DNA from: Diphasiastrum complanatum
Lineage: Eukaryota; Streptophyta; Lycopodiopsida; Lycopodiales; Lycopodiaceae
DNA length: 64,000 bases
Reading direction: 5' to 3'
NCBI GenBank assembly: GCA_029204225.1
Contig: CM055102.1
Coordinates: 11,359,245-11,423,244 of the forward strand
Position numbers and translations under genes: made by a program. The notes below the pieces were generated by a model, which was given only the letters and a program-made list of their open reading frames with translations, was not told the DNA's origin and made no database searches. Shown here in pieces: positions 3,050-58,074 of this stretch; position 1 is the first letter of the stretch, and each line of letters starts with the position of its first letter.

Positions 3050-4484
3050 ATCTTGGGAGACTTTGCAAAAGGTCTATGAATCCAAGAGCTAAACTAGAAT
3101 GTTAGCTTTGAAGAATCAAATCTATAGAAGCTATCAAAAGAAAGGAGAGAGTGCACATACTTTTGTCCTAAGAGTAAAGGAATTGAACAAAGAGCTAGCC
3201 TTTATAGGTGACCCTATCAAGGATGAAGAGCTTGTTCAACTCATATTGAATGGACTAAGCTTTGAATTTGACAATTTGGCTCAGGGATATGCAATTATGG
3301 GTAAGCTACCCATACTTGAAGAACTCCAAGGCACACTCATGGTCGAGGAATCAAGAAGGAGCCAAATGCAAGAGAGGATGGATAGGCTTTCCATCCAAGG
3401 TGGAGATGACCAAGATCTCTTCACCAAAGACAAAGGCAAGTCCAAAGGCAAAGGATCAACATTCAAGAAGTCTACAAAGTTTGAAGATCAAGAAGGACCC
3501 TCAAAGGCATCTCCATCAATCACCAAAGTCAAGAAGGACAAATCAAATGTGAAGTGCTACTATTGTAGCAAGATGGGGCATTATGCCTCGGAATGCCTCA
3601 AGAGGAAGCAAGATCAAAGCCAAGCCAACATGAGCAAAGAGGAGGAGGAGGAAAGTTCACATGAGGACTCTCTCATGATGTCCATATTTTATTCAACAAG
3701 CTTCAAAGGAGAAAATCCTTGGTGGATTGACTCGGGTGCTAGTTCACACATGACTAGTAAAAGGGAGTTTTTCTCTTCTCTCTTATCTTATGATGGACCT
3801 ATGAAGTCTATCTATACAGCAAATGATGAAGCTTGTAAGATTGAAGGAGTTGGTAGCATTCCCCTTTGCTTAGGATCTTCCAAAAAGATCAACATAGAAG
3901 GTGTTTTGTACATTCCTACAATAACAAAGAATCTACTAAGTGTTGGCCAAATGGTAGACAATGGTTTCAATGTTGACTTTGCTTCAAATGAATGTTTCAT
4001 CAAGAAGAAGGGTAAGATAGTGGCTAAGGGCACTAGACTTGGCAAACTTTATAAGCTGGATGCATTTGTGGATACTAATGTTGTCATGTTGGCCGAGAAG
4101 AGCAAGATATCTACCTTTACTTTATGGCACAAAAGACTTGGTCATGTCAACTCGGGTTCCATGGAGGCTATGATCAAGGAGGAGTATGTTTTAGGCCTAC
4201 CAAGGTCTATTGGGAAGGAAGACAAGGTTTGTGAAGCTTGTGCCTTATCCAAGGCACATAAGAAGGTGTTTCCTAACTCCATCACAAAGTCATCTCATCC
4301 TCTTGAACTCATACACTCGGATGTGCACATTGCTAGCACCAAATCTAATGGAAGTTCATCCATGTTTTTAACCTTCATTGATGACTACTCAAGATATTGT
4401 TGGGTGTTCTTACTTTCCTTCAAGTCTCAAGTATTTGATACTTTTGTAAAGTTCAAGTTGTTTGTGGAAAAGCATTTGAGCTGA
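3050..4484 (+). mobile_element. Copia-1: Ty1/copia gag-protease-integrase fragment
   Basis: This is an open copia polyprotein segment. The long frame begins at Met 3099, but homology starts upstream (WETLQKVYESKS, then a stop at 3090), so the true start is lost. Domains run in copia order: gag C-terminal half (residues 1-150), a CCHC zinc knuckle CYYCSKMGHYASEC (about 153-166), the protease motif DSGAS (about 211), the pre-integrase zinc region WHKRLGHV with CEAC (about 342-380), and the start of the integrase core with HSDVH and FIDDYSRYCW (about 406-435). It stops abruptly at 4484, losing the rest of integrase, reverse transcriptase and RNase H. It abuts an oppositely oriented copia gag fragment, so the break is a rearrangement or nested insertion. 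The frame is unbroken for 461 codons, suggesting moderate age. Confidence 0.9.
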
Positions 4485-4733
4485 AGTACAATCTCCTACC
4501 TCTCTTAAGAGTTCATTTGCAACATTCATTTTTATGCAATGTAGTGCAACATTGCACCTCTTGATGTATTTGGCTTTTTCTTGAGGATGAATAGGTTCAC
4601 CCTCCTTACCATTTACAATTTCCATCAGATCTTGCATGATCATGATAGATTCCATTCTAACTTTCCATATGGAATAGTTAGTTTTGTTGAGCCTTTCATT
4701 AGTATCCAAAAGATATGCATTTATAGATGCCAT
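4484..4733 (-). pseudogene. Copia gag N-terminal fragment
   Basis: Starting at Met 4733 this reads as a classic copia gag N-terminus. It opens MASINAYLLDTNERLNKTNY, continues with SIWKVRMESIMIMQDLMEIV, and ends near LREVGDCTSAQMLFHKQLEL. The pattern (short lead, N-Y-x-x-W-K/R-x-x-M) is typical of copia gag (UBN2-like). Homology ends near 4484, where the next codons belong to the opposite-strand Copia-1. The MNVANELLREV segment recurs in another decayed copia piece near 19.5 kb, so the family has more than one copy here. Confidence 0.75.
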
Positions 4734-5519
4734 CTAGTCTCCTAATCAAGGACTTGACACAAATGAAGGTTACTTCTATTGATTTGATTGAAGGTCTATC
4801 TTAGGGACCTGAAAAGATCAGTAATAGACTTCCTATAAAGATCTAAGAATGATCTCTAACAAAATCAAATCATAGAATACTAGAAACAATGCACTTGCTT
4901 GATTGAAGTAGACAATACTAGTAGAATTGTCCCTCTTTCTATAAAAAACATTAAAGCTTCCAAATGATCTGATCAAGAGTGAATTTCAGCAACCTAATAT
5001 ACTTTCAAAATCACTTGTAAAAGATCTAAATGGAACTTAATGAGGATGCAACACAATCTATTATCCAATCACAAACAAAAAATGATCAAAATTGATGAAA
5101 AATTGATCTAATTTGGTGCATAAGTCAAGAAATGGTTGGACTGAACCTAAATCACTTTAGGAGGTGTCTACTACACCTTAGAACAGCCTTGAAGAGTCCC
5201 CAAAACTCTGACCTTCCCTCTCCTTGAATGCTAGAAAGCCTCCTCTATAAAATCACCTCCAAAACTCGCTTAGAAATCAATGCTTGGAGCAAGCAAAACT
5301 TGCTATCTTGGTAATGTGAATTGAATTCAACTTTGCCTCTGGTTTTAGACACCTAAACACCTGCAAATGAAGTCACACAACACCAATCTCCAATGTATTT
5401 GACTCACTTTGAGTTCTAGAATCAATACTAGATGCTAAGATCCAATCTACACAAGATTTAGATCAAAAATTGTGATCAAATTGAATGAAAACCAAGGATT
5501 TAGCTCATTTCAGCCTTTA

Positions 5520-5532
5520 GGCTCTGATACCA
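5520..5532 (-). other. Copia primer-binding site (initiator tRNA-Met type)
   Basis: The minus strand reads TGGTATCAGAGCC, complementary to the 3' end of initiator tRNA-Met and the usual primer site of plant copia elements. It lies immediately inside the LTR end. Confidence 0.85.
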
Positions 5533-6213
5533 TTAAAAATTAAAGCAAATAATGATCCTAAAACACTTGAAATGATGAGGGAAACAATAGATTATGATTT
5601 CATAAGATTAGCACAAGTTGAAACATCAAAATCCATCAAAAATCTATGCTTGAACCTCACTAAATGGCCCAAATCCTTGAAGAAGACTTCACACGTGTGA
5701 AAGTACGGCCTCCCACAGTCTGAGTACTGTACACCAGACCTACATTCAATCCTATAATCATTAGTAATCACAAGTACTCAAACAATTATGAACATAGAGA
5801 GCAATTGCATCATTATGAGAGAAAAAACATGAAATTGCTTGATTGATTTTGGTGAGATGTCATCACCTATATATACATGATCCATCACGGTTTTGGGCAG
5901 GTATGAGTAGCCCTAAACCTATCCCTAATGCTAATTTTGGTGGATCTTTCATCCCTACCAAGTTAGGGTTGGAATCTTGGAGATCCCTCAACAATGCAAA
6001 AATTACAAAAAATAGCTCATATTTTTTCTCCCTTGTATCTAAGCATAATTTGGACTCATTCCAAAGGTTCTAACACTTAGGTCTACTTGAGAACATCCTT
6101 ATGAATGGAATCCTATGCTATTTGGCACGTGTGACAAGCCACATCATGACCATCTAACTATTTACAAGTCATATGACCAAAACTAGTCAAGCTAGAATTG
6201 TGAATTTTTAACA
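5533..6213 (-). repeat. Copia-2 5' LTR
   Basis: The LTR runs on the minus strand from TGTTAAAAATT at 6213 to AATTTTTAA at 5533, right against the primer site. These ends are short inverted repeats of each other, although the final CA is not preserved. Length is 681 bp. A CTATATATA stretch near 5869-5877 could be the TATA region. Confidence 0.65.
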
Positions 6214-7167
6214 AAAAGCACAGAATTCTCAACATTCTGCGAAGAACAGGGGATTGAACACCAGTTCACTCCTGCATACACACCAGAATACAACGGTGTG
6301 ACAGAAAGAAAAAACAGAACGCTAGTCGAAGGAGCCAGATGCATGATGGCACAGACTCAATTTTCAGGTCAATTATGGGCCGAGGCAATAGTTGCAGTTG
6401 TACACCTGCAGAACAGATCTACAACGACAGCGTTGGAGAACAAAACACCATACGAAATGTGGATAGGCAGAAAGCCTGATCTGTCATACATACGAGTGTT
6501 TGGATGTGCAGCATACAAGCACATTCCAAAGAAAAAGAGAAACAAGCTCGATAACAAATCTGAACAAACAACCATGGTCAGCTACTCGAACGGAACACAT
6601 GTGTACAGACTCTACGATCCAACCACGAAGAATGTTGTTTTGAACAGAGATGTGAAGTTCGACGAGTCCACATTCCCTGGACTGAAAGATGAAAGAGGCC
6701 ATGAGATATTCACACTGCTGCCTATTCAAGAGGGAGATCGAGGACATACATCAAATCAGAATACAGAGCTGCAGATTCCAGAGCAGCAGAAGGCAGAGGA
6801 TCGACCCCACAAACAAGAAATGTTCGAGCAGCAATGAAACGAACCTCGAAGGTCAACAAGACAAAGAAGAGCTCCAGATCGCTATTCTAACAATCTTCAA
6901 TGGAGAGAAGACACGCAGTTTGAGTACTGCAACTTCACAAAAGAGCCAGCAACATACAAGAAGCTATCCAAAGTCTAGAGGGAGAATTTTGGAAGCAGGC
7001 AATGTCAGAGGAGATCGAGTCAATGAGGCAAAACGAGGCATGGACATTAGAGCCACTGCCAGAAAACAGAAAAATAGTCGACTGCAAGTGGGTGTACAAG
7101 AAAAAGCTAAAATCAGATGGCACTATTGGCCACTACAAGGCAAGGCTTGTCGCAAAGGGCTGACGAT
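6214..7167 (+). mobile_element. Copia-3: integrase C-terminus and start of reverse transcriptase
   Basis: The sequence enters mid-integrase (FCEEQGIEHQFTPAYTPEYN, then GVTERKNRTLVEGARCMM, carrying the catalytic Glu region). It continues through WAEAIVAVVHLQNRSTT and the GCAAYKHIPKKKR segment to a stop near 6835. After a frameshift the copia reverse transcriptase start follows at about 6980-7162 (FWKQAMSEEIESMRQNEAW, CKWVYKKKLKSDG, HYKARLVAKG), then a stop. The N-terminal half and the catalytic YVDD part of RT are absent. The Copia-2 LTR sits exactly at its left edge, so Copia-2 probably inserted into it. Confidence 0.85.
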
Positions 7168-7395
7168 CTTGCTCTAAAACCAAACTGACAATATAGTCGT
7201 TCTATTTCGTGTATCTCTTGGTCTTGTGTTGTGTCTCTTGATTGCTAGAATAAAATATGTTTTGTGATGCGTAGTCAAGTGTCTGGGATCCCATAAGAGC
7301 TTCTGCACGAAAAAAAAATTCAAAGACAAAAAATTGTTCGCGAATCAAAAGAGAGAGGACGAACACGAAACGAAAAAGCTTTTGCAACATAAGTT
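7168..7395. other. Flank between Copia-3 and the gypsy-1 insertion
   Basis: Non-coding A-rich sequence. Its last five bases (AAGTT, 7391-7395) are the left copy of the target-site duplication of the gypsy-1 insertion. Confidence 0.5.
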
Positions 7396-8190
7396 TGTTA
7401 GCAATTGTGCTAACACAGAGAAAATAAAAAAATAAATAAATAAATAAAACTTCGTGACATGTGTTTTGTAATACCACGTATGAGTATCTGTCAATAAACT
7501 TCAGCCATGGCATGTGTTTTGTAAGTCCATGAGTAGAAGCTTAAATAATAATAAAAAAGCTTAAACTTAGATTTAGAACTTAGACTTAGGAAACTTAAGA
7601 TTAGAAATATTTTATCTTAAGTTTTCCTAAATTAAGAAATTTGAAGTTCTAAATCCTAAGCTAGAAGCTCTAAAAAGGCTAGAAATAGATTAGTCCCATA
7701 AGTTAGTAGACACTTATGGAAGACCCTCCTTGCCATAAAAGGAGAGGTATTTGCATTGTAAACAACACTCTGGGATTATGCTAAATTGCTCTCTATTGAG
7801 ATTATCATTCTATTTCTTTGTGTTCCCATTGGAAGGTGCTTGGGCCTCCTCTTGCCTCCTTTCATTGGCTTATTGTGGCATGTTTTTATTGGTTTATTTA
7901 GTTAGCCGCAACTTATCTTTCAAACCCTCGGGGTGTTACTTTCGGTCTTAGTTTAGCAACCTTGCTAGTTGGGTTTGTCTTAGCAAGGATTTTTATTGTT
8001 GTTTCTAATTAGCTTTATTTTCGTTTTGAGCACTAGTTGGGTAAGCCTTATTGCTCTCATCCTTGTTGATTATTTTCGTATTTCCGTTGAAGCTTGTTAT
8101 AGAAACTTAAAAAGTGGACGAATCTCTACATCCCTATACTACACCCGTAAGTAGATCCAGCCACCGCACGAACCAGAAACACTTCCAACA
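7396..8190 (+). repeat. Gypsy-1 LTR1, forward orientation
   Basis: A 795-bp LTR running from TGTTAG to CCAACA, followed after one base by a primer site. It is the inverted partner of LTR2; over the 225 bp nearest the tRNA I count about six differences. Its first 20 bases are a palindrome, TGTTAGCAATTGTGCTAACA. Confidence 0.9.
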
Positions 8191-8191
8191 T

Positions 8192-8315
8192 TGGCGCCGT
8201 TGCCGGGGATCGAATCCGGGTCACCTGCATGACAAGCAGTAATACTTATACCTTGCCGGGGATCGAATCCGGGTCACCTGCATGACAAGCAGTAATACTT
8301 ATACCTATACTACAA
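8192..8315 (-). pseudogene. Reverse-transcribed tRNA-Asp(GUC) copy with internal tandem duplication
   Basis: The + strand starts with TGGCGCCGTTGCCGGGGA, the complement of the CCA-bearing 3' end of plant tRNA-Asp and a known gypsy primer site. It does not stop after 18 nt. It continues antisense through the T arm (loop TTCGATC on the minus strand), the anticodon arm (loop TTGTCAT, anticodon GTC), and the D arm into the acceptor region (minus strand TTGTAGTATAG), lacking only about four 5' bases. A 53-bp part is present twice in tandem (8200-8252 and 8253-8305). Presence of the CCA complement points to a mature tRNA template. LTR1's U5 lies at the tRNA 3' end and LTR2's U5 end at the tRNA 5' end. 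It is unlikely to be a working tRNA gene because of the duplication and missing 5' bases. Confidence 0.85.
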
Positions 8316-9122
8316 TGTTGGAAGTGTTTCTGGTTCGTGCGGTGGCTAGATCTACTTACGGGTGTAGTATAGGGATGGAGAGATTCATCCACTTTTTAAG
8401 TTTCTACAACAAGCTTCAACGGAAATACGAAAATAATCAACAAGGATGAGAGCACTAAGGGTTACCCAACTAGTGCTCAAAACGAAAATAAAGCTAATTA
8501 GAAACAACAATAAAAATCCTTGCTAAGACAAACCCAACTAGCAAGGTTGCTAAACTAAGACCTAAATTAACACTCAAAAGGTTTGAAAGATAAGTTGTGG
8601 CTAACTAAATAAACCAATAAAAACATGCCACAATAAGCCAATGAAAGGAGGCAAGAGGAGGCCCAAGCACCTTCCCTCAAGCTATGCACCTTCCAATGGA
8701 AACACAAAGAAATAGAATAATAATCTCAATAGAGAGCAATTTAGCATAATCTTAGAGTGTCGTTTACAATGCAAATACCTCTCCTTTTATGGCAAGGAGG
8801 GTCTTCCATAAGTGTCTACTAACTTATGGGACTAATCTGTTTCTAGCCTTTCTAGAACTTCTAACTTAGGATTTAAAACTTCAAATTTTTTAACTTAGAA
8901 AAACTTAAGATAAAATATTTCTAATCTTAAGTTTCCTAGTCTAAGTTCTAAATCTAAGTTTAAGTTTTTTTATTATTATTTAAGCTTCTACTCATGGACT
9001 TACAAAACGCATGCCATGACTGAAGTTTATTGACAAATACTCATACGTGGTCTTACAAAACACATGCCACAGAGTTTTTATTTTTTATTTTTTTTATTTT
9101 CTCTATGTTAGCACAGTTGCTT
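8316..9122 (-). repeat. Gypsy-1 LTR2, inverted
   Basis: An 807-bp LTR in minus orientation. Its U5 end (TGTTGGAAG on the + strand) begins at 8316, directly after the tRNA copy. Its U3 start, at about 9122, lacks the first few bases and is fused to integrase coding sequence. It forms a long palindrome with LTR1 around a 125-bp centre. Confidence 0.9.
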
Positions 9123-10890
9123 AGGTCCGACATAATCAATTCCCCATTTTTGGAAAGCTTGATCAGTGCTTACGGGGTGTAGAGGCGTGTAATCTGTTTT
9201 TTGAAAGCGTTTGGTGCATTGGCAGACATCACAAGCCTTAGTGTAATTGTGCATATCCTTGAAGAGTGTTAACCACCAAAAACTGGCTAAGAGGATTTTC
9301 TTAGCAGTTGTTTCATAAGAGAAATGGTTGGCACCAATACCTTCATGAGTGAGGAAAATTACAGAGGGTATTTCTCCTTCAGTAAGACATCGTCGGATAA
9401 TTCCATCTAACACTTGCTTGTAGAGTTGTCCTGCGATTAACGTACAAGGTTTAGTTTTGAGGACCAACGCACGTTGTTCAGGTTTAGAGAAGGAAAGATC
9501 CATCTGTCCTGGAGTTAAAAATTCGATAATTTCCTTAGCCCATACAGGTGTAGAGTCAACTTGGAAAAGGATTGCATCTGGTAAATCATCGTTGACGCCT
9601 TGATCGGGGGTAGGAAGGTCAGGGATTCGGGATAGATGGTCTGCTAAAAAATACTGAACTCCCTTACGAACCACGATCCTAAACTCAAATTCTCGTAATA
9701 ATAGGACCCATCTAGTAATACAGCCTGTGGTGCACGTCTTGTTGATGAGATACAACAGTGCTTGATGATCAGTGAAGAACGCAAAGACTTTTCCTAGAAG
9801 ATAATGGCGAAACTTCTGAACCGCATATACCATTGCCAAGACTTTGCGTTTGGTAGTGGTATAATTGACTTCAGCATGTATCAATTGTCGACTAAGAAAA
9901 CGAATTGGGTAGTCCTTTTTGAATTCTCCCGGTTGGATGAGCACTGATCCAATGGCATACTTGGATGCATCGGTATGCACATGGAATTTTTTAGAATAAT
10001 CAGGAGCCCGAAGGATGGGTGCATTGGTAAGGGCTTCTTTGAGTTGATTAAAGACGACGCGTTGTTCATCTGTCCATTTGGGAACTACAACTACTTTGTA
10101 GATTAAGTGTGCTTTGTTAGCGAAATAAAGCACCGATAGTAGTTGGCGTGGCCAAGGAAGGAGTAAACTTCACGTATCGTACACGGTTTTGATAGATTTT
10201 GAATGATAAGGACCTTTTCAGGGTCAGTTAATATGTCCTAACACAATACCATGGGTTACCCAAATCTGGCATTTTTCAAGATTGAGAGAGATGCCAAAGC
10301 GTTGACATTGGATAAAAAAAATCTCGAGCACATACAAATGGCATATTTTTTCAGAATGTGCTCCTAAATCGTCCAAGTAAACTTCTAAGGTATCGCCCAT
10401 CTGTTGAGAAAAGGCCGCTTGCATAACACGTTGGAAGGTGCTAGGAGCATTGCAGAGACCAAAGGGCACGACTTTCCAGCAGACGGTTCTCCATTTTGTG
10501 GCAAACGCGATTTTCTTCTTCAGCGATTTGGATCATATTATATCCGCTAAAGCCATCTAAGAAGGAGTAAGCCTCATCTCCTACTAGATTTTCTAAGATG
10601 GATTCTTCGAAAGGTAATGGAAAATGATCACGTTCAGTGACGACGTTAAGTTTCTTAAAATCGACACAGATGCAGAGTTTTTCATTTTTCTTGGGGATGA
10701 TGACAATTGGGGAGACCCACTCAGTATGCTCAATTCCATAGATAAATTTCGCATCTAAGAGGCGTTGTAATTCTTCTTTGATCTTGGCCTTATAGATGGG
10801 ATTGCATCTGTATGGACGACTCACAGTGGGTCTCGCACCCGGTTTAAGCGGGATACGATGCACAACTACTTGGGGTGAGATGCCTTTCAT
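9123..10890 (-). pseudogene. Gypsy-1 reverse transcriptase, RNase H and integrase zinc finger
   Basis: Minus-strand gypsy pol in three frames. RT starts at 10890 (VDFKKLNVVTERDHFPLPF, then AYSFLDGFSGYNMIQIA) and continues at 10469 (MPFGLCNAPSTFQRVMQ and the catalytic VYLDDLGAHSE). RNase H is at 10133 onward (FHVHTDASKYAIGSVLI, FTDHQALLYLI, ADHLSRIPD). The integrase HHCC finger follows (HEGIGANH ... CDVCQCTKRF). Integrase stops at GIDYVGP (about 9124), where LTR2 begins, so the catalytic Asp-Asp-Glu core is almost wholly deleted. Frameshifts near 10450 and 10200 break the polyprotein. The element could not integrate by itself. Confidence 0.9.
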
Positions 10891-13269
10891 GTCTTTGTAG
10901 GTCCAAGCAAAGATATGTCGATATTTTCGCAGGAGCTTTTCAAGCCGTCTACATTGTTCGTGATTGAGAGGAGCTTCGACGTGAACAAGATATTCGTTGG
11001 TTTCATTTGGCTCACTCAGGGAAAGGGTTATGGTTTGTGCAGGGCCTTCGTAGGGTGAATTACCAGTTGGCTCACGTTGAGCTTGGGGTGATTGGATTGT
11101 GACATCCTCGATCGTATAGTCCTTAAAGTATGCAGGAACATCATGGGATGGAGATTCGAGGGGAGCCTTGCCTTTCTCTTGCCGGGATGGTGCTTGGAAT
11201 TTATTGGGATTGGTGTAGGACCAGAGGCAATCTCAGGAATTTCTCAAACAATGGTGAGGTCACCCGACGGTTGAATTTGAAGTGGTTTTTTCATTTTCTC
11301 TTTCATAGTATGACCACGTGGTTGAGGTTTTGGTGGTGGAGATGTGTGTGGATGAGGGACAGTTAGTATGTCATGGAGGATCTCGTCATCAATTTGAAAG
11401 ATAGTCTCCTCCACACAGAGATCCCATGGATAGTGTGGACGTTTGGGACGGTAGAATTTTGTCTTAGGTTTTTCGATTGCAACCTTGGCAACTGGTTCCA
11501 CCTTGGAAGCATGTTGCGGATAGGTCCTAAGATGTTCTCATCATCAATACATAAATCGTCTGATTCATTAGTAGGTAGCCATGCAACATTTAGCAAATCA
11601 TCATGGTGTGGAAGAATATCAATAAAATTGACATTGATGATAGGTGTATCCATATCAGATAATTGGTCGTAATCGATCGGGAGTGGAGAGGTACAATTAT
11701 CCTGATGCTAAACACAATAATCGACATTCACACAATCAATGGTAGCTAGACTATGACTCCAGTTTATGATATCAGTAGATTTAACATAATGACATTTTTC
11801 ATGGCTGGACTGGTATGGCTCAAATACTGAGTTGGTGGTTGAGGATCCCTCATCATGGATGTGTGAAGGTTTGAGTTTACTCGTTGAGTCAATGGTGACA
11901 GAACTGTCACGATTGTCAAAAGTGACTCGGCCTTTGCTCCAGTCATGAACGACTCGTGCATTGGTGAGCCACTGACGACCAAGTAGTAATTCATAAAAAT
12001 AGACATTATTAGGAATATCAAGTACTACAAGATCAACATAAAACTTGAGACCTCCTAGTTTGATCAGCACGTGCGGAAGGAAACCGGTAGGTCAGACCAC
12101 CCTTTAATCAGCCATCCGAAGCTGACAAGTAGATTTGGCTAGCTTGTTGCTCAAATTTCATTCCATCATGAGGGATGTGGAAATGATATTAACTCCGGAA
12201 CCTCCATCGAGTACTGCTAAAACTTCACGAGATTGATGATGGGTAGTTGGATTTTGATGTTGCCTCATTCGCTGAGTGGATTGGTTAGATGTAAGGGCAT
12301 TTCAGGCAACTCGTCAATAGTGGTGGTGGTATTGGATTGGATCTGTTGTTTCCACTGGCCAGCATGCTTCCAGAGTACATGGAAGGGAAGAGTGACATTG
12401 GCTTGTAGTAGATCTCCCGAAACTTTGGTACCTTCAAGGGTTTTGCTTTCAAAGGGCTTGGGAGGTACTTTATGGGAAGAGGAAGATTGTTGGTTGGCAT
12501 TGCGGATTTGCTGACGATACTCATGATGCAGCCGAATTTCTTCAGACGGGTGAGGGTAAACTATCGAGGTTAAATCATCACTTGGAGGAACAGCCTGTGG
12601 TTGAGTTTTGCTGGGTGCAAGTGTAGGGGCTTGGCGTTGGGTTTGTGCCCGAGTCAAGACCCAAGCAAGACGTGTTTTGATTGGTAAGGTTGTTACTTGC
12701 ACTGAACAGACAGTAGCGGCTGGCTTAGATCAGGATGGGCAGTCCTTCACGTGATGTTCAATACCACAGTTTTCACAAGCTGGGGGAAAGCGGAGTTTAT
12801 CTGGGCAACGAATACTAGGATGTTTACTTGCACAGATAAAGCATCCTTGTATATTGCAGGCAGTTGATGTGCGACAAAGACAACTTGGTTTGGATTGTAA
12901 GCTTGGGCATTGGGATCCACTGGTTGAGCATTAGAATCATAGGTATAATAAACAACCATTTCAGTAGAGTACTGTGGTTGAGTATTGTCTTCCACATAGT
13001 AGGTGGCCAGATCGATGGTATTCGAATCAAGATAATGGATAGTGTTTTGTGGGGTAGGTTGGTTAACAACAAACTGCTGTCATGGGGATTGGTATTGATT
13101 TGGTGCAGGTGGTCGTGGTTGGTAAACCCCTGGTCGTGGCACAGGTTGTTGTGGCGGTAAGGACGGTAAGCTCGATAGATGGTGGGTCTGGTGGCTGCTG
13201 AGAAATGATTTCGCAATTGAGGTCATTCATTAGCAGTGTGATGCTGTGAGCAGATTGGACACCATACAT
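10891..13269 (-). pseudogene. Gypsy-1 gag C-terminus, protease and linker
   Basis: Three zinc knuckles can be read on the minus strand: CPICSQHHTANE near 13250 (final Cys lost to a stop), CFICASKHPSIRC near 12835, and CENCGIEHHVKDC near 12770. A retropepsin-like region follows near 12220-11950, with LDGGSGVNII in place of the common DTGA, then LLGRQWLTNARVVHDW. Between protease and RT is an acidic linker (11653-10900). Upstream gag, the primer site and the end of LTR3 are missing. Frames are broken in several places. Confidence 0.75.
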
Positions 13270-13884
13270 ATAAAAATCCTTGCTAAGACAAACCCAACTA
13301 GCAAGGTTGCTAAACTAAGACCTAAATTAACACCCAGAGGGTTTGAAAGATAAGTTGCGACTAACTAAATAAACCAATAAAAACATGCCACAATAAGCCA
13401 ATGAAAGGAGACAAGAGGAGGCCCAAGCACCTTCCCTCAAGCTATGCACCTTCCAATGGGAACACAAAGAAATAGAATGATCATCTCAATAGAGAACAAT
13501 TTAGCATAATCTCAGAGTGTTGTTTACAATGCAAATACCTCTCCTTTTATGGCAAGGAGGGCTTCCATAAGTGTCTACCAACTTATGGGACTAATCTATT
13601 TCTAGCCTTTCTAGAACTTCTAACTTAGGATTTAGAACTTCAAATTTCTTAACTTAGGAAAATTTAAGATAAAATATTTCTAATCTTAAGTTTCCTAAGT
13701 CTAAGTTCTAAATCTAAGTTTAAGCTTTTTTATTATTATTTAAGCTTCTACTCATGGACTTACAAAACACATGCCATAGCTGAAGTTGATTGACAGATAC
13801 TCATACGTGGTCTTACAAAACACATGCCACGGAGTTTTATTTTTATTTTTTATTTTTTTATTTGTGTTAGCACAATTGCTAACA
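13270..13884 (-). repeat. Gypsy-1 LTR3, U5-truncated
   Basis: Minus-oriented LTR matching LTR2 from its U3 start (TGTTAGCAATTG at 13884) to 13270, where it breaks. About the last 190 bp, including U5, are missing along with the primer site. The adjoining AAGTT at 13885-13889 is the right target-site duplication. Confidence 0.85.
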
Positions 13885-14020
13885 AAGTTACATGGCTTCA
13901 GGGACAGACTTTGTTATTTATTGCCAGTGTATTGGAGATGAATACCTTGAGCTTACAAACTTTGGTGGTCACGCCGTGTTGGATACAACAATTTTAAAAA
14001 AAATGCATGGATTGTCCGCC

Positions 14021-14241
14021 CCCCACGATATCACCACACAGATTCTATTCATCCCACGACATCTCGCATGGATTTCATTCATCCCACAACACCTCACGCA
14101 GATTCTACTATGGATTCTATTCATTCCACGATGTCACCACACATAGATTCTATCTATCTTATGACACCTCACATCGATTCTATCCATCCCACGATACCTC
14201 ACATCAATTCTATCCATCCCACATCACCTCACATACCTTGT
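14021..14241. repeat. Minisatellite, about 30-bp unit, about seven copies
   Basis: Degenerate tandem units of about 30 bp share cores such as CACCTCACA, GATTCTAT and CCATCCCACGA. Copies vary by substitution and by one longer unit. Reading frames across it (13892-14286) are a by-product of the repeat and show no conserved protein. Confidence 0.75.
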
Positions 14242-15744
14242 GTAGAATCTTCTCTTCTTCCTATCCTATCTAGATTTACTCCTTAAAAAAAAAAGCACGA
14301 CTTGGACGCATTTTGACAAGATTTGAAAATGAACAACCAAATTTATGTATTGTTGGCTTATCCAAGAAAGTTTTAAATTCATTGACTGAGTCTCCCCTTT
14401 CTCCCTACCTAGAAGCATTGGTTAAGCCCTTTGATAGAAAGAAATATTCATGTTGGCCTGATGGAGTACATGTCATACTATACCAACAAGGTTAATATAG
14501 ATTTTGTAGTAAATAATGTCGAACCCATAGAGGATAGCGTTAGAAAGTTATGTATTTGGTACAATTATGATTTATTTCGAGTGAAGTGGATTTGGGCGTT
14601 ATTCGGGTTGTCAACATACACTAGAAAGTAACCACTATTACTTGTGTTTGGGGTGTGTAGTGTTAATAATTTCAAAACAACAGTCTTGCCGCTATTAAAT
14701 CGAATGAAATACGTTCTACAAATGAGATGTTATTAGAGTAGTACAGCAGTACTACACTCCGACTGATTAAGGCATCAACCGAGAGTCGAGAAATGTTCGA
14801 TGCATTCGTGTTTGTGTAGACAATTAGTTAATTGCATTCGCGAACTGTTCGTTTCTAGACAAAAGTCCTCAACAACTTAGGTCCAAAGTTACGGTTAAAG
14901 AACACAAAGAGTTCTTGAGTACGTTAGAAACTTATGTCAGTTACAAGCAAGAACACAGATCAAAGACTCAATTCTTTAGACAGAGACTGACATCTCAGAT
15001 ATATACATACAGTTTTATCAATTATTGTGCTAGACTGTACCAAATGTAGACTTTATTCGAGTGCCGAAAAGAAAGTGTTCGTGACAGACGAATAAGAGGA
15101 TTTTAAGACAGTTCCTTAGAGCATATCTACGAACATACAACAAACGACTATAATGCGCTAGAGAGTCTATCTGACCAGAGAGTAATTCATGTAATGCATT
15201 AGAGATTGCTAGTAGACTCAGGATCACTCACACTCAACAGTGTGGAGAACAGAGATAAGAGAGAATAAACCTCAACACTCTATTCACTTTCTTCAACCTC
15301 TCACAAATACATAAACTCTTTCTCTCTCGGTGATCGAGACTCAAGCGTGTGATCAATATATGTTCTATGGAACGAACAAACACACCTATAAAACTACAGG
15401 TGCGTCGCTTCCATGAAAAGGTCTAGTTAACAATTAGGTTGAATGTATGTTCAATTATACCATAAGAGGTATATTTAAGTAAGAGTTAAAATTACTCTAG
15501 TTTAACATGTCGATTCATATTTAGTCGTTCCGCGTAGATGACCCAGTAAAGGCTTATCCAAGACAACATTTCGTTTTTAGAGGTCTTGCCCTTAAATACA
15601 AGATAAGCCTTTAGGAGATATATTCTTGTAAAATGACTTAGGCCTCTTCATGGTTTATATTTATCTAGCTCATATCTTCATTTTCGAGTATATCATGCCA
15701 TATTTAGGTCGATATTCAATATTTAACAATTTCGTGGCATCACA
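14242..15744 (-). repeat. Probable 3' LTR of gypsy-2 plus unassigned sequence
   Basis: On the minus strand an LTR-like start, TGTGATGCCACGAAATTG, lies at 15744 right after a polypurine tract. Sequence to the left looks like an LTR with a transcribed 5' region (GAGAGAAAGAG and a CT-rich stretch near 15240-15340). I could not fix the outer end because no second LTR was found. Bases 14242-14700 hold nothing I recognise. Confidence 0.45.
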
Positions 15745-21061: not shown

Positions 21062-22477
21062 TCATCTTGATAAATCTGGTTTATTCACAAGATACTTTAG
21101 AGCATAATGATCAACATGAGAAATAAAAGCATATCCCAGCAAATAATGCCAAAAAAATTTAACAGTGAAAATCATTCCGAGTGCTTCCCTTTCTGCAGCC
21201 GAAATTTCGAGGCACTTAGCTGTCGACTTGCATAGTATATGGGATGGTCTTTTTTCTGATCGTTCTTCTAGCTTAGACATATTCCAGTAACAAATGCAGA
21301 AATATCAACATAACTATGAAATAAAATAGCCCAGTTGGGTGGTCTCAGAATAGGAGCATTGATCAACCTTTGCTTAAGTTCTTCGAATGCTCTCTGCTGT
21401 TCATTCGTCCACAAGTATTCCACTTGTTTCTTAAGTAGATGCGTAAGAGCGACAACAATAGAGACATGATTTTGGATAAATCTCCGATAATAATCGACAT
21501 GTCCTAAGAAAGCTCTTACTTCATGTAGATTTGTTGGTATTAGGAGGTTCTTTATAAGCTCGATTTTATCTTTATCGACCTCTATTCTTCTGTTTGATAT
21601 TCTGTGTCCAAGTAAAATTCCTTCTTTCATACCGAAAAAACATTTCTTTGGATGAAGGAATAAACAAGTATCTTGACACCGTTGCAATGTAAGTTTCAGC
21701 TTCTGTAGATGTGTTTTTATGTCACTATATACACAGAAATCATCAACGAAAATTATTCAAGAAAAGTTCTTAGGAAGGCAGCAAAAATTAACATCATAAT
21801 TCACTGAAAAGTCGCTGGTGCGTTGCAAAAACAAAGGGCATTTTGTTGTAGGCATAAGTGCCCCAATCCGTAGTGAACATGGTCTTTGAACGATCCTCCT
21901 TTCTCACTCCAACCTGATTATAACCATAGAAACCATCATAGAAATTGTAACGCTCTTGAACGGCAACATGATCTAAGATAGAATCGGTGAAGGGCAGAGG
22001 ATGATGATCCTTCCTTGTGGCAGCATTAAGCTTTCAGAAATCCTGGCATATTCGTATTTTGCCAGTCTTTTTCTTTGGAACAACAACAATGTGAGAAACC
22101 CATTCACTGCTTAAAATGAGATAGATAATATCTGCCTTAAGGTGCTTGTTGAGTTCGTCTTTAACCATGAGGGAGTACTTTGGATTGAGACGATACTGTC
22201 TTTGCCGAACAGGTGCAACATCTTCTTTAAGATCAATACGGTTGTCTCCAAATTCTGCAGGTATACCTTTCAAATCGTCGAGTGACCAAGCAAATACATC
22301 TTGGTACTCCTTCAACAATTCCGTGAATTCAGCTAATTCCGTCTCTCCAAGTGACTTTGAGACATGTACAAATCTGCCAGGTGCAAGTTCAATTAGTTCA
22401 GTAGAATTTGGTAGAATGATATCTTCTGTCATACTGGCCTTGGTATGGCCATGAATTTTGCGCATGGTTGACTCCAT
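21062..22477 (-). pseudogene. Gypsy-2 reverse transcriptase and RNase H
   Basis: RT fingers start at about 22340 (DVFAWSLDDLKGIP, VVVPKKKTGKIRICQDF). The palm follows in other frames near 22020-21700 (HHPLPFTDSILDHV, FYDGFYGYNQV). RT connection is at 21687 (HPKKCFFGMKEGILLGHRI, VRAFLGHVDYYRRFI). RNase H is at 21380-21062 (ILFHSYVDISAFVTG, AAEREALGMIF, HYLLGYAFISHVDHYALKYL). The frame changes at 22034, near 21700 and near 21280. I did not find an intact YxDD box in one frame. Confidence 0.85.
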
Positions 22478-22831
22478 AGATATATTCTTTTCGTTAGCCT
22501 GGTTTTTGTTACCAAATTCTTGTTCAAATTCATCACTTGAATCATCATCAGACTCTTTAGAGTTCGTGTCTGCACATTTATTTCTTTATCCACAACATCC
22601 GCTTCAGTGTTGAGGCATCAAAGAATTCTTCTTCGTCAGTATTTTCATAGCATTAGAAATATTGCACTTCGATGTCAGATGCATTGGATAAAATATTTAA
22701 TGCATAAGAAGAATCTTCTTAGGTAAAACTGGTGTCAGACAAAGGAGTTTCACCTTCGTATTTGTCACGACTCCAAGTGATTATTTATTCTGCTGGCTTA
22801 CCTCGATTATTGGTCTCACCAGTTTGAAATC

Positions 22832-29697: not shown

Positions 29698-58074
<28,377 letters not shown>

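Follow-up and report, generated by a model that had tools for sequence, protein, structure and literature searches.

Within a 64,000-nucleotide stretch of DNA from Diphasiastrum complanatum (the window; C11:11359245-11423244 of a 1.74-Gb genome), we found a Ty3/gypsy insertion that shows a U3 (unique 3') terminus on both of its outer sides and carries, between two opposed long terminal repeats (LTRs), a nearly complete copy of tRNA-Asp. We consider it probable that this block, at 7391-13889, is a single insertion of aberrant Ty3/gypsy complementary DNA (cDNA), in which a tRNA-tailed LTR was fused to a U5 (unique 5') end before integrase inserted the product by its two U3 ends. In protein comparisons, the best hits bearing an organism name came from Adiantum nelumboides, with 41-55% identity.

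Direct reading and a repeat search give the order of the block as AAGTT, LTR1 in forward orientation, a single T, an antisense tRNA-Asp copy, LTR2 inverted, a reversed internal region, LTR3 inverted and AAGTT again (Table 1). The initial annotation had proposed a perfect 5-bp AAGTT duplication and U3 at both outer ends, and both are there: the repeat stands at 7391-7395 and 13885-13889, and the U3 terminus TGTTAGC is exact on either side, contributed by forward LTR1 and by inverted LTR3. In an ordinary insertion, the outer ends are U3 on one side and U5 on the other, the LTRs are direct and a polypurine tract (PPT) lies beside the 3' LTR. Here both outer ends are U3, LTR1 is opposed to LTR2 and LTR3, and LTR2 adjoins the middle of integrase. 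The LTRs run TG...CA, the primer-binding site (PBS, TGGCGCCGTTGCC) is complementary to the 3' end of tRNA-Asp and the target-site duplication (TSD) is 5 bp, in the window as in ordinary copies. The AAGTT repeat, of the family's TSD length, sits exactly at the LTR termini, as expected of integrase-mediated integration; the chance of an identical 5-mer at random positions of the local flanks is 0.0016. In the internal region, Pfam recognises RT_RNaseH_2, RT_RNaseH and Integrase_H2C2, the zinc-binding domain of integrase, in that order (window 9108-10169, minus strand), that is, RNase H before integrase as in gypsy elements, and reverse transcriptase and zinc-knuckle parts were recognised by eye; two other frames of this stretch, 10441-11232 and 12265-12729, have no Pfam match.

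At the centre, ARAGORN calls a tRNA-Asp(gtc) at 8248-8319 on the minus strand, and Rfam gives a match to RF00005 (E=0.0034). The copy begins with TGGCGCC and ends with CTACAA, and its TGG is the complement of CCA, placed at PBS distance from LTR1. That LTR1 and LTR2 oppose each other across a tRNA-derived centre had been seen in the initial annotation; what needed correction is that this centre contains a 53-bp tandem duplication. Once the duplication is discounted, the copy proper comprises 71 of the 75 nt of the tRNA and has no copy of nt 1-4. We take the duplication to be later because both units have the same differences from the host tRNA. Compared by eye with three host tRNA-Asp genes (L053-L055), the copy has four substitutions and an altered D-loop. 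The exact pattern, sought in viral contigs, gave 0 matches there.

Ordinary copies of the family served as the control. A genome search with the LTR gave 44 matches, the best 40 of 3419 candidates being scored, and provided 38 LTR places besides those of the window (L003-L008, L017-L048). LTR, PBS and leader are directly visible in 16 of them (12 distinct places, with four pairs having common flanks), and in these 16 the match to the tRNA stops after about 14 nt. Since ordinary copies match the tRNA over that length only, the centre past the PBS is tRNA read-through, and a leader mistaken for tRNA can be ruled out. Within the fetched stretches, neither tRNA sequence beyond the PBS nor an inverted LTR arm longer than 100 bp occurs at any of the 38 places, although the LTR alignment stops at least 27 bp before the LTR end in eight of them (L006, L019, L026, L028, L029, L037, L044 and L047), so that most of these eight are hardly informative on the U5 side. 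In nine of the 38, U3 is preceded by the PPT AAGGAGGGGGATAA or by a form of it that differs in one letter, and the solo LTRs L007, L035 and L036, with TSDs ATATA, GCTAG and CAAGC, establish 5 bp as the TSD length of the family.

In fact, joints between an LTR and a tRNA copy recur in this genome. With the tRNA copy of the window as query, a search yielded 21 matches, every one of which was scored; for host tRNA-Asp plus CCA, the best 40 of 97 candidates were scored. We examined 40 loci, made up of L051-L070 (20 of the 21 matches) and L079-L098 (20 of the 23 new places), leaving out C13:10072129 (a gene-like match), C1:56321604 and C1:79146713 (inside L077). The CCA complement stands beside an LTR-like end in 31 of these loci, with one mismatch in L096; the remainder are seven tRNA genes and two ambiguous loci (L059, L060). 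By their left ends, the 31 fall into 14 clusters, holding 22 distinct joints by clustering and 23 by our own count, since L079, L082 and L098 have a joint unlike the window's. A second copy or an LTR match confirms the left end as an LTR for some clusters (the window's, L052/L085/L097 and L057/L058), and for most single-locus clusters it is only the PBS-like arrangement that identifies it.

Nine of the 31 loci (the window, L057, L068, L079, L082, L098, L085, L091 and L097) also have an inverted arm, counted where its score exceeded the best shuffle by more than 8, and they trace to 7 events spread over 5 clusters. The pairs L079/L099 and L098/L100 are identical including their flanks and L082/L101 are 96-97% identical including theirs, and because of these common flanks they were counted as one event. 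A palindromic unit moving on its own was likewise ruled out, since L099, L100 and L101 have common flanks and so were duplicated with the locus.

What follows the tRNA tail varies from locus to locus. In L099, part of an LTR is followed by 74 nt of tRNA, a 9-bp filler and an inverted LTR without 11 bp of U5; this LTR continues into the PPT and internal sequence of the 3' side, which identifies the partner there as an ordinary cDNA. In L071, a full tRNA is followed by about 30 bp of filler and an inverted U5 of 193 bp. In L072, the tRNA reaches nt 5 as in the window, the inverted arm is 133 bp long and the two arms share their stopping point in the LTR, as they do in L102. U3 stands at both outer ends in L103 (from L085) and L104 (from L097), where extra sequence lies between the tRNA and the aligned arm and arm identity is 72.7% over 366 (strongly diverged) and 88.8% over 457, respectively. 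In direct orientation, the tail is followed by a U3 start in L083, a U5 end in L096 and a second PBS in L077/L095, and in L080 and L081, by eye, by the C-terminal region of integrase.

At the joints themselves, overlap lengths are exact and were taken by eye, as the automatic count allows mismatches and misstates overlaps. Joint J1, from the tRNA copy to LTR2, reads CTA-CAA-TGTTGG, with the 3-nt overlap CAA; overlaps of at least 3 nt occur in 1.5% of 330 possible joins. The corresponding overlaps are 2 nt (AA) in L072 and 5 nt (ACAAC) in L102. At J2, LTR2 has lost just the 4 bp TGTT of its U3 and there is no clear homology to the integrase side. The window alone spans J2 among the best 40 of 2383 candidate matches scored, the other 39 stopping at query 80 or starting at 81 (one at 82), and in L049, an ordinary copy, about 4.3 kb separates the two points that are joined here. 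A breakpoint at most 4 bp from the U3 end suggests that the U3 end of LTR2 was either a free end or a template terminus. J3, from gag to the middle of LTR3, is likewise without clear homology.

To explain this anatomy, we infer the following order of steps, with a strong-stop origin for LTR1 and an integrase acting on two U3 ends. Plus-strand synthesis would have started at the PPT and copied an LTR; instead of stopping early in the primer, it would have run on through mature tRNA-Asp almost to its 5' end. The resulting tRNA-tailed plus-strand strong-stop DNA would then have been fused, at CAA, to the U5 end of a second, opposed LTR. This composite, with a truncated pol/gag and a third, partial LTR in addition, would have ended in U3 on both sides, and integrase would have joined both U3 ends to the target, leaving the 5-bp duplication. 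In its support, we note the 5-bp repeat with two exact U3 termini, the CCA complement of a tRNA copy that runs past the PBS, the recurrence of LTR-tRNA joints at 31 of 40 loci with inverted partners at nine, the microhomology ACAAC seen by eye in L102, and the U3 outer ends of L103 and L104. The initial annotation had envisaged an LTR cDNA with its tRNA copy joined to the U5 end of a second cDNA. The tRNA-tailed LTR does lie at the U5 of an opposed LTR, but the partner was no intact cDNA, since LTR2 is fused at most 4 bp from its U3 end to the middle of integrase, and LTR3 to gag.

Did the three LTRs enter together? They differ at 39/790 (LTR1-LTR2), 26/596 (LTR1-LTR3) and 35/610 (LTR2-LTR3) sites, 19 bp found in LTR2 and LTR3 are absent from LTR1, and in 591 three-way columns LTR1, LTR2 and LTR3 have 12, 21 and 14 private differences. 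In a tree of 35 LTRs (the window's three and 32 of the 38 control LTRs, six with alignments of 700 or less being left out), the three form one clade with local support 0.86, and their terminal branches of 0.027, 0.034 and 0.030 indicate similar divergence. Relative to the family majority, three derived sites occur in all three, two in LTR1 and LTR3 and one in LTR1 and LTR2. The sequences thus support a common origin of the three, short of proof, and what the tree leaves open on a single event is carried by the fit of AAGTT at both U3 ends.

Several observations weigh against a single aberrant insertion. The repeat is only 5 bp long, with a chance match of 0.0016 per pairing, and no TSD was seen by eye at L103 and L104, the other two-U3 structures. 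By raw distance, LTR1 is closest to L007 (0.041), L018 (0.042) and L004 (0.043) and only then to LTR3 (0.045), LTR2 is nearer to L004 (0.039) than to LTR1 (0.050), and just three derived sites are common to all three LTRs. The microhomology measures only 3 nt in the window and 2 nt in L072, and J2 and J3 are additional joints that the account does not predict. Some of these points would suit a history of two events, in which LTR2-internal-LTR3 is an ordinary element in reverse orientation, LTR1 with its tRNA tail landed or was captured next to it on a separate occasion, and the AAGTT match is a coincidence: the repeat is short, the three LTRs do not stand apart by raw distance, and palindromic tRNA-tailed pieces do occur at L072 and L102, where no TSD was found by eye. 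We nevertheless regard two events as unlikely, given that AAGTT matches both U3 ends exactly and is absent at the outer edge of LTR2, and that the clade support and similar branch lengths speak for a common history. An error of assembly or library preparation, by which a foldback read was joined into the contig, is very improbable. Palindromes are typical foldback artefacts of long reads, and our evidence is the assembly sequence alone; yet the arms differ at 39/790 sites and by the 19-bp deletion, the centre is a tRNA copy and similar structures lie on several contigs, although one pair of these is 100% identical over 4.1 kb and could be an assembly duplicate. A foldback sequencing artefact in particular would have near-identical arms and is ruled out by their divergence of about 5%. 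Even less credible is a genomic tRNA-Asp gene at the centre with elements inserted beside it. Ty3 inserts beside tRNA genes, and both ARAGORN and Rfam call a tRNA here, but the CCA complement lies at just the distance from the LTR that a PBS has and is missing from the host tRNA-Asp genes, which rules out a tRNA gene. These genes form seven loci without CCA (L053, L054, L055, L065, L066, L067 and L070), of which the last three are overlapping stretches of one cluster on C7.

A variant of the favoured account, compatible with its integration step, is possible if somewhat doubtful: the 3' end of the tRNA-tailed strand would fold back, prime at the TTG of the U5/PBS border and copy its own LTR into a hairpin, and before integration the U3 end of this hairpin would be fused to a fragment made of pol/gag and LTR. 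LTR2 would thus be a copy of LTR1 and not a second cDNA. Such foldback copying would fit the position of J2, at most 4 bp from the U3 terminus of LTR2, as if that U3 were free or a template end; it would also fit the shared stopping point of both arms in L072 and L102, and the use of the same tRNA nucleotide at the joints of the window and L072. It fits less well with L099, whose partner was an ordinary cDNA, with the other partners to which tails are joined, among them a U3 start, a PBS and integrase sequence, or with the present-day sequence at 8150-8315, which includes the duplication and as DNA folds no better than shuffles (z 0.64). The variety of tail partners speaks for end-joining; some events look more like foldback, judging by the symmetric arms of L072 and L102 and by where J2 lies. 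We tentatively envision, as a view with nearly even prospects, that reverse transcriptase in this plant often copies the whole primer tRNA, and that tailed strong-stop DNA is a regular substrate of foldback or microhomology end-joining, giving rise to two-U3 LTR-tRNA-LTR palindromes that integrase can insert as it does normal cDNA.

This account has counterparts in known systems. Plus-strand synthesis normally halts in the primer at modified bases and reaches the tRNA 5' end on unmodified tRNA; in HIV-1, full-tRNA plus-strand products are no active templates for transfer (PMC13191261), whereas here such a product is found in chromosomal DNA. Dead-end plus-strand strong-stop DNAs accumulate in Ty3 (PMC5371799). 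Like LTR1, they are LTR copies from the PPT whose end was copied from part of the primer tRNA, but they hold 12 nt of tRNA and are unintegrated, while the window has nearly the whole tRNA, fused and integrated. HIV-1 2-LTR circle junctions can also retain tRNA primer sequence at the LTR-LTR joint (PMC5618025); those circles are unintegrated, and the window's LTRs are opposed and chromosomal. Host alternative end-joining uses PBS microhomology in second-strand transfer (PMC12786077), similar in its short homology to what we propose, but there it serves normal transfer or circle formation. Finally, template-switch complexes of Triticeae, rice and maize hold three LTRs within one 5-bp TSD and were ascribed to one reverse transcription (PMC1950507). 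They resemble the window in this respect and differ in their same-direction LTRs, normal outer ends and lack of tRNA. In the complexes of Sabot and Schulman, a third, direct LTR is common to two cores within one TSD; the window has inverted LTRs and a single truncated core. Direct three-LTR complexes are thus already known, and the inverted, tRNA-centred two-U3 form is apparently undescribed, as had been suspected: we found no integrated LTR-tRNA-inverted LTR and no natural two-U3 insertion in a literature search, which is weak evidence given its poor coverage of subscription journals. Within this genome, the structure is no one-off, with an inverted LTR arm at nine of 40 loci.

The block would preserve in a chromosome a reverse-transcription intermediate that was supposed to be a dead end, and it suggests that a plant Ty3/gypsy integrase is capable of concerted integration with two U3 ends. 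Because LTR-tRNA joints recur, the genome is a readable record of how often primer tRNA is read through and of the partners that tailed DNA finds, and tRNA modification and host end-joining thereby become testable causes. If tailed DNA is indeed a regular substrate, these insertions would constitute an LTR insertion class, recurrent and undescribed, in which failed strand transfers are preserved as fossils.

Other tRNA-tailed loci deserve mention in their own right. L083, with an LTR-like end, a tRNA copy and a direct U3 start, resembles a 2-LTR circle junction with tRNA, but is chromosomal. L061-L064 and L076 have the same LTR-like end, near-full tRNA-Asp copy and following sequence at four places, which looks like a propagated joint. 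L077 (reverse complement) shows one tRNA at 4915-4989 and another at about 8314-8389, and belongs to an Asp-primed family in which two neighbouring members have a tRNA copy lying between the end of the LTR and the PBS; the LTR end of this family itself resembles the 5' part of the tRNA, and L095 too has tRNA and then a PBS. In L077 and L095, tRNA tails may have become heritable leader sequence. Primer read-through may not be limited to tRNA-Asp: with an initiator tRNA-Met query, 28 of the best 40 of 96 candidates start at the complement of CCA and extend over 57-75 nt.

Table 1. Components of the two-U3 insertion, in window coordinates.
Feature	Position	Strand	Basis
Left target-site duplication, AAGTT	7391..7395		sequence; family TSD is 5 bp
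LTR1, U3 terminus outward, TGTTAGC...CCAACA	7396..8190	+	sequence; LTR termini of family copies
Spacer T, 1 nt, between LTR1 and PBS, as in ordinary copies	8191..8191	+	comparison with ordinary copies
Mature tRNA-Asp copy including CCA complement TGG, antisense on the plus strand, reaching tRNA nt 5	8192..8315	-	ARAGORN; Rfam; host genes L053-L055
53-bp tandem duplication inside tRNA copy, unit 1, exact	8200..8252		repeat search
53-bp tandem duplication inside tRNA copy, unit 2, exact	8253..8305		repeat search
CAA common to tRNA copy and minus strand at U5/PBS border; microhomology at J1	8313..8315		by eye
LTR2, inverted, U5 complete, without outermost 4 bp of U3	8316..9121	-	LTR comparison
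Joint J2, LTR2 U3 to mid-integrase, no clear homology	9121..9122		sequence; genome search
Reversed internal fragment: first part of integrase, RNase H, more pol, gag-like; broken frames	9122..13269	-	Pfam; match to L049, L050
Joint J3, gag region to middle of LTR3	13269..13270		sequence comparison
LTR3, inverted, U5 side absent, U3 terminus outward against right AAGTT	13270..13884	-	sequence; repeat search
Right target-site duplication, AAGTT	13885..13889		sequence

Other elements lie around the block. A truncated copia element (3093-7177, plus strand), with gag, integrase parts and the start of reverse transcriptase recognised by eye, ends about 210 bp to its left. In the right flank (13885-14400), none of the 40 other matches listed starts before position 122 of that flank, near which a repeat with 543 candidate places begins. 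Further along lie the remains of another LTR element (21268-22585, minus strand; RNase H match at 21268-21756, frames broken) and, by eye, LINE-like reverse transcriptase frames (37059-40314, minus strand), parts of which recur at 44836-45242 with 76-78% identity.

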